A stretch of 64,000 nucleotides of DNA, taken from an uncultured Ilumatobacter sp. (GTDB lineage: Bacteria > Actinomycetota > Acidimicrobiia > Acidimicrobiales > Ilumatobacteraceae). The stretch spans positions 62,001 through 126,000 of the forward strand of contig CAJQPY010000005.1 in NCBI GenBank assembly GCA_905480335.1. Reading direction: 5' to 3'. The translations under genes and the position numbers were made by a program. Below are positions 11,194-14,998 of this stretch, in pieces. Below the pieces are notes generated by a model, which made no database searches, had not been told where the DNA came from, and was given only the letters and a program-made list of their open reading frames with translations. Within the stretch, counting starts at the first letter, position 1, and every line of letters starts with the position of its first letter.

Positions 11194-13206
11194 TCAGCCG
11201 GCGCGCGCCTGCTGGCGCTTACCGTCGAGGAAGTCCACCAGCACGTAATCACCGAGATTCTCTGGGGTTGTAAAGAATGCACGACCCTGGTTGATCTGGG
11301 TCATCCGCTCGACGAATGCGCGCAGCGACCCGTCGGCGCCTAACGCGAACGTATTTATCCGAATCTGGCTCTTCGTGCAGCGCAATACCTCGCGCAACGT
11401 TGCCTCAACCGTCTCACGCGCCGGCGGATAATTGAAGAACGGGTACCCGTCCGGCGTTATGTGTGCTGTCGGCTCGCCGTCGGTGATCATGATGATCTGC
11501 TTGCTGCCGGCCTCCTTGGCGAGCAACTGACGCGCGAGCGTAAACCCGTGATGCATGTTTGTGCCGTAGACGAAGTCCCATGACACCTCAGGCAACTGCT
11601 CTGCGGTGAGGATTCGCGCGGTCTCGGAGAAACCGACTATGCCGAGATAATCCCGAGGAAATTGCGTCGAGATCAGGTGATGCAACGCCATCGCCACCTT
11701 CTTCGCCGGCAAGAAGTTGTCGCGCATCGGCATCGACAGTGACAGGTCGAGCATCAGGACGGTCGACGAACGCGTCAGGTGCTCCGTGCGCTCGATCTCG
11801 AAGTCGTCGGGTGACAGGCGCATAGGGGTGCTTGCCTCGGCATCGCCTGCCTGTCGGCGCAGCGCGTTGCGGATGGTCCGATTCAGGTCAAGCTGAAACG
11901 GATCGCCATACTCGTATGGCTTGCTGTCGTAAGTCCGCTCGTGACCGACGCCGTGCTGACTCATCTCGTGCTGACCAGCCATCTCCTTCGACAACTTCGA
12001 AAACAATTCGCGGAGCGCGTTCGCACCGATCTTGCGCAGCCCCTTTGGAGTTATTTCAAGCTTGCCCTCACGCTGCTCGACAAGACCCGCCTGCTCGAGC
12101 TGATTAGTTAGCTCTGCAAGCCGTTCGAGTGATTTTGCTGCATCGTCACCCATCAAGTCGCGGACCTTGCCCATGTCGGCTTCTGCGAGCGCGCTTGGAC
12201 TCGACGCATTCCGCAGCAAGTTCTCGAGTTGGTCGATGTCACCGAGCTCCTGCATTGCCTGCATCGCCTGCGAGAAGCCCACCGGGTCCTCGCCTTCGAA
12301 GTCGTAGCTGCGGTCCCACTGCATCTGCGGGAACATCTGCTGGAGATTCCCCGACAGCTGCTGCATCTGCCACTGGAGATCCATGTCGCTCGTCAATTGA
12401 TCGCTGAGCTCCTGCATTTGCGCCCGCTGCTCTGGCGTCATCGAGTTCATCATCGCCTGCATCGCCGCCATCCGCTGCGCCATCTGCTCAAGCAGCTCTT
12501 CGACATTCTCTGGATTTTCCGGGAAGAAGTCGGCGAATTCCTCCATGAACTCCTCAAAACCCGGATCGTCGCCCCGCCGATGCTTCTCGAGCATCTCGTT
12601 GAGAGCGGCCATCATGTCCTTCATTCGGGCCATATCTGCGGGGGTCATGTCCTGCATCGCGCCTGACATCTGGTCGACCATCTGCTGCATGAGCTGCTCT
12701 TTGAGCTGCTGCATCAGTCGTTCGAAACGTTGCTTCGCTTCGGCCGACTCGAAGTTGTAGGAATCCAACTCGCGGACCTTGCCCGCAAGATCGTTGGGCA
12801 TCAAATCCAATCGCATGTTGCGGTCCTGCGCCGCCGCTTCGGCGTTCTCCGAGCGGCGCTGGTCACCGGAGTTTTGGGCATCACGCAGTGCGTTGTCGAT
12901 TGCGTGACGTTCCTCGTCAAGGATGTCGTTGATCGCGTCGTTGATCTCGTCGTACACGCCCCCAAGATCGCTGTTCGCGAGACGATCTTTGCGTTCCTCT
13001 CGAAGCTGATTGAGCAGTTCACGAAGACCTTGCAGGTGGTGGCCGTCTTGGTCCTGCATACCCTCCTGCATGATCCGACGGAGTGCAGCATTAACATCAC
13101 CGTGATAAAGAAGCTCGTCGGTGAGCCTGTCGAAGGCCGCATCGGCGTCGAACTCAAACCCCGTCTGCGTGCCGTCCCAAGCCGAATAGGTGAACCGGGA
13201 ACTCAT
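11194..13206 (-). CDS. VWA-domain protein, partner type of MoxR/ChlI AAA+ ATPases
   Basis: A 670-residue protein with a long, charged, Met/Gln-rich helical region (about residues 60-400, with many EQMAQRM- and MQQL-like stretches likely to form coiled coils) and a C-terminal von Willebrand A domain. The MIDAS motif DLSLSMP (D-x-S-x-S) is intact near residue 480. Such proteins usually work with a MoxR- or ChlI-type ATPase to load metals or remodel other proteins. A suitable ATPase is encoded 1.8 kb upstream on the same strand, separated by a redoxin and by an oppositely oriented cyclase gene. Start ATG 13206. The client is unknown. Confidence 0.82.
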   Translation of the reverse strand: MSSRFTYSAWDGTQTGFEFDADAAFDRLTDELLYHGDVNAALRRIMQEGMQDQDGHHLQGLRELLNQLREERKDRLANSDLGGVYDEINDAINDILDEERHAIDNALRDAQNSGDQRRSENAEAAAQDRNMRLDLMPNDLAGKVRELDSYNFESAEAKQRFERLMQQLKEQLMQQMVDQMSGAMQDMTPADMARMKDMMAALNEMLEKHRRGDDPGFEEFMEEFADFFPENPENVEELLEQMAQRMAAMQAMMNSMTPEQRAQMQELSDQLTSDMDLQWQMQQLSGNLQQMFPQMQWDRSYDFEGEDPVGFSQAMQAMQELGDIDQLENLLRNASSPSALAEADMGKVRDLMGDDAAKSLERLAELTNQLEQAGLVEQREGKLEITPKGLRKIGANALRELFSKLSKEMAGQHEMSQHGVGHERTYDSKPYEYGDPFQLDLNRTIRNALRRQAGDAEASTPMRLSPDDFEIERTEHLTRSSTVLMLDLSLSMPMRDNFLPAKKVAMALHHLISTQFPRDYLGIVGFSETARILTAEQLPEVSWDFVYGTNMHHGFTLARQLLAKEAGSKQIIMITDGEPTAHITPDGYPFFNYPPARETVEATLREVLRCTKSQIRINTFALGADGSLRAFVERMTQINQGRAFFTTPENLGDYVLVDFLDGKRQQARAG

Positions 13207-13314
13207 TTATCGAACTTACATCAGCCTTTCAGCCTGTACCTCAGCGCGAAAGAACTCTGGAGAACGAGAAACAACTCAAGTGAAACCAGGCACAGGCCGC
13301 ATAACCTTAGTGAC

Positions 13315-13860
13315 ATGCGTGTGCCCCGAACGTTTGTGTTCGTGGACCTTTCTGGGTTCACGAATTACACGGCGGCCTTCGGCGATGATGCTGCCGGGCG
13401 CATCCTAAGTGCTTTCCGCACGATCGTCCGTTCGGTTGCATCCGAGCGTGGCGTCCGGATTGCTAAGTGGCTGGGCGACGGCTGCATGTGCGTAGCGGTC
13501 GAACAAGATGACGCCATCTCGTTCGTGCTTGATCTCGAGCGGCGCGCTACCGAGGTGTGCAACCCGCTCACAGTACGCGCCGGGTTGGCAACAGGCCATG
13601 CACTCCTATTCGAAGGCGACGACTACATCGGGTCGGCTGTCAACATGGCCGCACGGCTGTGCGACCGTGCCCGCAACGTCGAGGTGCTAATGCCGGCGAT
13701 GCAGCTTGAGAATCTCCCCGACGGAGTCAAGGCCGAGCCGTTCGGCGAAGTCGAGCTGCGGGGATTCCCCGGGTCGATCAGCGTCGTCGCTCTGCAGGGC
13801 GTCCCTGCGTCGGTCGACTCCGACACCGGAGAGCTCTGGACCCGCACGCCGTTCATCTGA
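13315..13860 (+). CDS. Class III adenylate/guanylate cyclase, catalytic domain only
   Basis: Makes a cyclic nucleotide from ATP or GTP. The 181-residue soluble protein is a single catalytic domain: FVFVDLSGFT supplies the first metal-binding Asp, KWLGDGCMCV the second Asp and the substrate Lys, and VNMAARL the transition-state Asn/Arg pair. No membrane or sensor domain is attached. I start it at ATG 13315; a longer open frame upstream is antisense to the VWA gene. It lies alone on the plus strand between two minus-strand genes of the VWA/AAA+ set and converges with the redoxin gene, with only 19 bases between the two stops. Confidence 0.85.
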   Translation: MRVPRTFVFVDLSGFTNYTAAFGDDAAGRILSAFRTIVRSVASERGVRIAKWLGDGCMCVAVEQDDAISFVLDLERRATEVCNPLTVRAGLATGHALLFEGDDYIGSAVNMAARLCDRARNVEVLMPAMQLENLPDGVKAEPFGEVELRGFPGSISVVALQGVPASVDSDTGELWTRTPFI

Positions 13861-13879: not shown

Positions 13880-14998
13880 TCACATGGTTTTGGGGTAGTA
13901 CCGGCCGACTGGCGTCGTCAGCACGTCAGACGTGAAGTCCGATGAGAAAGGCCATTCGGATTCTTCGCCCTTGATCGGCGCTTGAACGAACTGGCCGTAC
14001 TCCCCACCGACTCGCTCCCGGCCGAGCAACGACCACGCTTGACGCCGGTACGTCCAGTTGTCGGGATGAAGCCGGTGGCACTCATTGAAATGGGCAATCG
14101 CTTTATTGCGATCACCTTCGCGCCAAAGCTGACTTGCCAGCTCAAAGTGGGCTGCGCCGGCCGACACGTCGGTTGTCCGCGGTTGCGATCGGGTCACGAC
14201 CTCATTGGGCGAGAGCGCAAACACGCTGTCGGCGCCTTTTACCACCCAATCCCGGAGGGCGTCCGCATAGGTGCCACGGTCCTGTCCCGAACCGAGCACG
14301 TCCCACTGTCCCGGCCCATCTTCTGGTGGTGGCGGCGCAGTCGGTGCAGCGCCAAGCTCGGGAATCGCAGCAAACATATCACCAGGCATCGCCGGCCTCT
14401 CTGACGGCCAACCAGGTTCCGGTGGACGCACGATCATGCCAGCCTCGTCGACCCAGATCACGTTCGGAATGTTGACCACGCCGAAGAGAGCGCTCATCTG
14501 ATGCGTCGGATCAAGCAACGCCGGATGCTCAGGCAGAGCAGCCTCAATCAAGGCGCGCGATGCTCCCGGACCGCTCAATTCAAGCGACACCGTGACGATC
14601 TCGACACCCTCACCATGGAGTTCGTTGCGCAGTGCCTGCCACCCGGGCAGGTCGAACGAGCAGCCTCAATAAGGGGCCCAGGAGACGATCACGACCTTCT
14701 GACCGAGCAAGGAGGACAACCTGAATTCGTTTCCGTCTAGGTCGCCGAGCACCAGCTCGGGCGCACAAGCGCTGGCGAGCGCCCGATCGCCGAGCGATTC
14801 GGGCCCGATCGCCCACCGACCGTGGGCTTCATCGGCGACCACGGCCATCCCGAGCCGAGCCGCCGCATCAACGAGTTCAAAACCTCCGGGGCCCAACGGC
14901 ACGCAGACGTCTGCTCGGCACGCCCCTTCGGGCTTAATCTCCCAGCCGGTCACAGCTGCGAAATCAACCGGGCTCATGTCGAGGTCATCAACGATCAT
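13880..14998 (-). CDS. Redoxin-domain protein, candidate selenoprotein (in-frame TGA = Sec111)
   Basis: Two open segments in the same frame (14998-14669 and 14665-13880) are joined by one TGA at 14668-14666. Read through, the protein has 372 residues: an N-terminal region of about 85 residues, a thioredoxin/redoxin domain beginning LVLGDLDGNEF, then VVIVSWAPY-U-GCSFDLPGW, further redoxin features to about residue 190, and a C-terminal TPR-like stretch (FELASQLWREGDRNKAIAHF). The TGA falls on the first catalytic cysteine of a WAxxCxxC-like site, leaving U-G-C. A SECIS-like hairpin follows. The ATG overlaps the AAA+ gene stop (TGATG), so translation is coupled. Both halves keep coding character, which argues against decay. 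Alternatives are a TGC/TGT-to-TGA sequencing error or a recent nonsense mutation. Selenocysteine genes are not visible in this window. Confidence 0.72.
14635..14668 (-). promoter_or_regulatory. SECIS-like hairpin following the in-frame TGA
   Basis: After the TGA (14668-14666) come 14 bases, then CCTGCC, a five-base loop CGGGT, and GGCAGG, giving six perfect base pairs. The loop has G in its second position, and 21 bases separate the TGA from that G. Bacterial SECIS elements are known to sit about 16-37 bases past the UGA with a G in the first two loop positions. The fit is by eye; function is inferred. Confidence 0.6.

Follow-up and report, generated by a model that had tools for sequence, protein, structure and literature searches.

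Very probable selenocysteine, encoded by an in-frame stop codon, in the active site of a ResA-like redoxin from an Ilumatobacter-related genome

Among the described systems closest to the gene examined here are the ResA, TlpA and DsbE thiol-disulfide oxidoreductases, of which ResA is membrane-anchored and carries a CxxC active site. Selenocysteine recoding was reportedly the subject of a 2016 paper. Redoxins with a UGC motif have already entered published selenoprotein tables: in its accessible part, the Global Ocean Sampling survey of 2008 lists a 'Prx-like (UGC-containing)' family that was commoner in non-marine samples (PMC2398784), and the accessible part of a review has a table entry, 'UGC-containing TlpA disulfide reductase family protein', that cites the ocean survey as its reference 61 (PMC13188914). 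As far as these parts describe them, both families share with the protein reported here the UGC motif and the AhpC-TSA/TlpA domain class, and we infer, from description and not from sequence, that they correspond to NCBIfam family NF041054 (WAxxUGC_long, ResA-like WAxxUGC motif-containing protein, an equivalog). The accessible portion of a further paper contains nothing on the UGC family (PMC5029168), and a search within another turned up none of the terms sought (PMC12013277). Our literature search, with many subscription papers outside its reach, found no experimental study of NF041054, and the name WAxxUGC did not appear in it. UAG-encoded selenocysteine, in turn, is already known from the Geodermatophilaceae, for which the accessible text names FDH, UGSC and AhpC genes and not the NF041054 family (PMC5330540).

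The gene lies on the minus strand of a 64,000-nucleotide stretch of DNA (the window, meaning the whole stretch analyzed) from a draft genome of 2.95 Mb that is 94% complete and comprises 51 contigs. Translation of positions 14998–13880 gives one reading frame of 372 codons plus a stop with a single interruption, a TGA at 14668–14666: 110 codons precede it, 261 follow it, and the terminal stop codon at 13882–13880 is likewise TGA. An earlier sequence-only reading had described a single TGA parting two open segments of the same frame inside a thioredoxin-like motif, SWAPY-U-GCSFDL; its coordinates and motif are both exact, and reading through would place selenocysteine at residue 111, followed by Gly112 and Cys113, to form a Sec-Gly-Cys site. 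That reading had also warned that a gene caller would report two short proteins and miss the enzyme. A plain list of open reading frames does give two pieces, of 110 and 236 amino acids, but annotation based on NF041054 need not miss it. On the same strand, the read-through protein comprises an N-terminal part containing a CxxxxC pair, Cys27 and Cys32 (residues 1–77; 14768–14998), a redoxin or ResA-like domain (residues 78–190; 14429–14767), and a weak TPR-like helical part (residues 282–320; 14039–14155).

In profile searches, the read-through protein scored 416.4 bits against NF041054 over residues 1–370, with a cut-off of 300, and it carries the W-A-x-x-U-G-C motif of the family as SWAPYUGC; no difference from the family was found. 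On 14 control genomes, the same model gave matches at E 0.001 in 11 and none over the cut-off. AhpC-TSA, the top Pfam domain of the protein, scored 42.0 bits on read-through and 15.9 and 18.6 bits for the two halves alone, with a gathering cut-off of 26. Since neither half reaches that cut-off and the read-through protein does, and given the NF041054 score, the two segments are not joined by chance. The TPR-like coding character proposed for the gene is weak, its best match, TPR_2, reaching 21.9 bits, under the Pfam cut-off of 27. Because the NF041054 score exceeds the family cut-off, the selenoprotein reading is right on the computational evidence and the family is one already catalogued: we regard the window protein as a new, well-supported case within a known selenoprotein family, not a new kind.

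The sequence-only reading had proposed a search of the same genome for selA, selB, selC and selD, and all were recovered over their cut-offs. One tRNA-Sec was found at 66.5 bits (cut-off 47), which ARAGORN labels tRNA-SeC with anticodon tca; selA (398.8 bits) and selB (275.4 bits) adjoin each other on contig 6, and selD (365.7 bits) lies on contig 31. The tRNA-Sec model matched all 14 control genomes at E 0.001, only five of them over the cut-off, so that only the score and the anticodon count for this gene, and weak matches mean nothing. The selD gene (L017, G000:C31:56738-57658) was observed to have its own in-frame TGA, at ..HGAG-U-GCK... The same genome has another paralogue whose frame contains a TGA, at AFSSW-U-GC (L049, G000:C5:173000-178500; match at contig positions 175269–175874); it scores 196 bits, under the NF041054 cut-off.

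Comparison with relatives is, as we weigh the aligned sequences, the strongest evidence for the selenoprotein reading. A first count of the site codon used a pattern admitting only a stop or Cys and returned 134 segments, of which the 119 distinct ones had TGA in 100, TGC in 14, TGT in 3 and TAG in 2. Any other residue would have escaped this pattern, so the count was repeated on an alignment with X at the site, with no residue preferred, across 131 loci (L019–L148 and L160), some of which are the same DNA taken twice (115 matches distinct). One locus lacked the site, and the remaining 130 had TGA in 112, TAG in 3, TGC in 12 and TGT in 3, with nothing else observed. An alignment with homologs had been another proposal of the sequence-only reading, which expected Cys in place of the TGA; Cys indeed occupies the column in 15 of the 130 loci, and two full family members with TGC score over the cut-off of 300, namely those of Frankia sp. 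QA3 (L148; 491.9 bits) and a Verrucomicrobiaceae genome (L147; 543.6 bits). Twelve Cys paralogues from the window's order (L057–L068), taken from the listed stop-free rows above about 140 bits with G111, G185 and G289 left out, fall under the cut-off; G161 (as L056, the locus without the site) and G004 are partial pieces.

Of the 298 genomes in the window's order, 283 show at least a weak or partial NF041054 match and 55 have one over the cut-off; exactly one TGA is present in all 70 listed over-cut-off rows, and TGA occupies the site in all 30 loci compared from this order. Among named relatives, the closest copy of the gene, from the isolate Ilumatobacter nonamiensis (78% identity), also has TGA at the site. 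The scan of named genomes, in which 80 of 247 relatives were kept, relied on two patterns, one for the site motif in its Cys-coded form and one for a motif near the C terminus, and for this reason did not disfavor Cys forms. An Ilumatobacteraceae contig of 8.8 kb (L095) carries three different WAxxUGC sites with TGA.

TAG occupies the selenocysteine site in Geodermatophilus sp. TF02-6 (L077:9001-10119), in Klenkia soli (L097:9001-10092) and in a third genome of the same bacterial family (L160). When this family was sampled, 3 of 76 genomes had an over-cut-off member, and all three of these members had TAG. Each of the three TAG genomes has an over-cut-off tRNA-Sec with a CUA anticodon; ARAGORN labels these genes tRNA-Pyl, presumably on account of that anticodon. 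The third TAG form keeps the hairpin described below, while the Geodermatophilus and Klenkia genes end in TGA. A 49-row tree joins the two TAG rows in a single branch (100/99) within a group of eight that also contains the window's clade of four (99/98). Codon and anticodon thus appear, from the genomes compared, to move together in the NF041054 family. In each of the two Frankia genomes with Cys forms, a single match to the tRNA-Sec model exceeds the cut-off, and ARAGORN calls it tRNA-Ser (tga). The CUA tRNA-Sec and the selenocysteine at TAG in these relatives resemble the UAG-encoded selenocysteine of the Geodermatophilaceae as set out in the accessible text (PMC5330540), whereas the window gene uses UGA.

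Bacterial SECIS (bSECIS) elements follow the rule of a stem-loop right after the UGA with a G early in the loop. A putative hairpin of this kind, CUGCC-5 nt-GGCAG, is located 16–30 nt after the site codon; it has the loop CGGGU in the window (14650–14636, minus strand), and the second loop base is G in all six loop types. Its conservation was assessed by synonymous-codon resampling (300 trials) on the 119 distinct segments, comprising 102 Sec-type and 17 Cys segments. With kinship ignored, every one of the 102 Sec-type segments forms all five pairs, where resampling leads to an expectation of 35.4 (sd 4.7, maximum 49). The stem Leu codon ends in G in all 102; the remaining Leu codons of the 119 segments do so in 225 of 508 cases. 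In the opposite arm of the stem, each of the five CAA codons faces TTG. Full pairing also occurs in 5 of the 17 Cys forms, above the expected 2.0 (maximum 5 in 300 trials). Mean fold energies were −17.99 against −14.85 resampled for the Cys forms and −16.47 against −14.70 for the Sec forms; as the excess in the Cys forms at least equals that in the Sec forms, energy does not separate the latter, and only the near-absolute pairing does. The single-sequence fold of the window's own element is unexceptional: of 200 dinucleotide shuffles of its 49-nt stretch, 139 fold as well as the stretch itself (z +0.61). Judged by its pairing across the family, the gene has a conserved bSECIS-like hairpin.

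Across all 49 aligned rows, Cys27, Cys32, Cys113 and Pro178 never vary and residue 111 is always U or C; we take Pro178, by analogy, to stand at the cis-Pro place. In the PDB, the AlphaFold model (pLDDT 95.7, pTM 0.93) is closest in fold to ResA chains (2f9s, E 1.3e-10), with thioredoxin-family, DsbE, StoA and TlpA chains next. The sequence search ranked three engineered TPR proteins first by E-value, at residues about 275–309, ahead of thioredoxin-family, ResA and TlpA chains. The protein has the redoxin fold in common with the ResA/TlpA/DsbE oxidoreductases and differs from them in having Sec-x-Cys (or Cys-x-Cys) in place of CxxC, in adding the N-terminal CxxxxC part and a helical tail, and in its lack of a hydrophobic N-terminal segment. 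A CxxC active site was not found in the window protein: all 49 rows have U/C-G-C, and the next residue is Cys in a single row, other than the window's. No N-terminal membrane anchor was detected in the first 78 or so residues, where the highest 19-residue hydropathy is 1.19 and none of the 49 rows exceeds 1.6.

We consider it very likely, and close to certain, that the gene encodes a soluble thiol-disulfide oxidoreductase of the ResA/TlpA fold with selenocysteine as its attacking residue, its UGA being decoded by tRNA-Sec and SelB. The computation supports this through family membership, the selA–selD machinery in the genome, the exchange of Sec, Cys and UAG at the site, the conserved bSECIS-like hairpin and the fold, and the sequence-only reading of the gene is borne out. 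In the proposed mechanism, the ribosome would read the UGA at codon 111 via tRNA-Sec (UCA) delivered by SelB, which would recognize the hairpin just 3' of this codon, while the terminal UGA would be taken as a normal stop. Sec111 would attack and Cys113 would resolve as a selenenylsulfide; the Sec-Gly-Cys pair would then alternate between its selenol/thiol and selenenylsulfide states as it reduces a partner, probably in the cytoplasm. The invariant Cys27–Cys32 pair may serve as a relay, passing electrons.

More tentatively, and at somewhat less than an even chance, we propose a soluble four-residue relay (Cys27, Cys32, Sec111 and Cys113) on the ResA fold, in a family whose site codon moved among UGA, UAG and Cys with anticodon and hairpin in step. 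If true, this would provide a natural test set for how selenocysteine codons get reassigned. With this gene, a near relative of Ilumatobacter gains a well-supported selenoprotein. Its interest is modest because NCBIfam already includes the family and published selenoprotein tables list UGC redoxins (PMC2398784, PMC13188914); the most interesting by-product is the presence of UGA, UAG and Cys forms side by side in one enzyme family.

The gene might instead be a pseudogene, an ordinary Cys-redoxin gene split by a sequencing error or by a nonsense mutation of recent date, which would look alike if one stop codon in one draft genome were all that could be seen. With TGA in the same column in 112 of the 130 loci, the Ilumatobacter nonamiensis isolate included, and with both sides of the TGA conserved over their full length, this explanation is so improbable as to be nearly negligible. 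UGA read-through happens in bacteria, and the codon might accordingly be read as another amino acid (e.g. Trp) or be plainly leaky; however, in the search that preferred no residue, all 15 loci with a sense codon at the site encode Cys there, and the replacement of UGA by UAG in three genomes with a CUA tRNA-Sec is unexplained by nonspecific UGA read-through, which leaves this reading highly improbable. A peroxiredoxin-type peroxidase containing selenocysteine, instead of a ResA-like oxidoreductase, would fit the top Pfam domain (AhpC-TSA, 42 bits) and the name 'Prx-like' given to the UGC family in the accessible part of the 2008 survey (PMC2398784). The Prx motif, given as PxxxTxxU in the accessible part of the review (PMC13188914), is nevertheless absent in its C/U form. 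Position −7 from the site is L, I, V or M in all 49 rows, and position −3 is A in 41 and S in 8. The leading PDB folds are those of ResA and then the thioredoxin-family, DsbE, StoA and TlpA chains, the sequence search agrees for the redoxin domain, and one peroxiredoxin, Bcp1 3drn, ranks 50th in the fold list; we regard the peroxidase as unlikely.

The protein could also work with the adjoining AAA+ ATPase and a VWA protein as the redox part of a chaperone-like machine. The sequence-only reading had noted translational coupling to the upstream AAA+ gene, and the ATG of the selenoprotein gene does overlap the AAA+ stop by one base (TGATG, 15000–14996); AAA+, VWA and selenoprotein genes stand in a row in a Dehalococcoidia contig (L101:5484-10098; 54, 40 and 52% identical to the window's), and the order AAA+, selenoprotein, VWA is seen in L069. 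Yet a sample of the window's bacterial family shows a match to the AAA+ gene in 60 of 61 genomes, and this gene was found beside the selenoprotein in only 6 of 84 loci (the 80 named ones plus L050 and L052–L054), that is, in five close relatives (L050 and L069–L072, with L070 cut by a contig end) and in L101. Most of these absences are real, since 68 of the 80 named loci extend at least 1600 bases upstream, and the two genes are apart in G006, G211 and G251; G270, with a contig end nearby, is not counted among these. We judge such a machine quite improbable and take the AAA+ gene to be a core gene of the window's bacterial family, behind which the coupling is a local insertion: the overlap stands as described, but it is local to close relatives and not a mark of function. 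The AAA+/VWA link, when tried as a clue to function, likewise proved local.

A rough clustering of neighbors (742 mechanical open reading frames of at least 110 amino acids, within about 6 kb, from 85 loci) recovered 55 loci for the gene's own half and no other cluster of more than 7 loci apart from two of 38 and 13 loci. These two (58 minus-strand and one plus-strand open reading frames, mostly starting over the gene) were taken as antisense artefacts. Between the selenoprotein gene and the VWA gene, and overlapping the latter, the window has a plus-strand open reading frame at 12730–13860 whose second half reads like a putative class III nucleotide cyclase domain; L071 has an open reading frame with nearly the same start as this second half.
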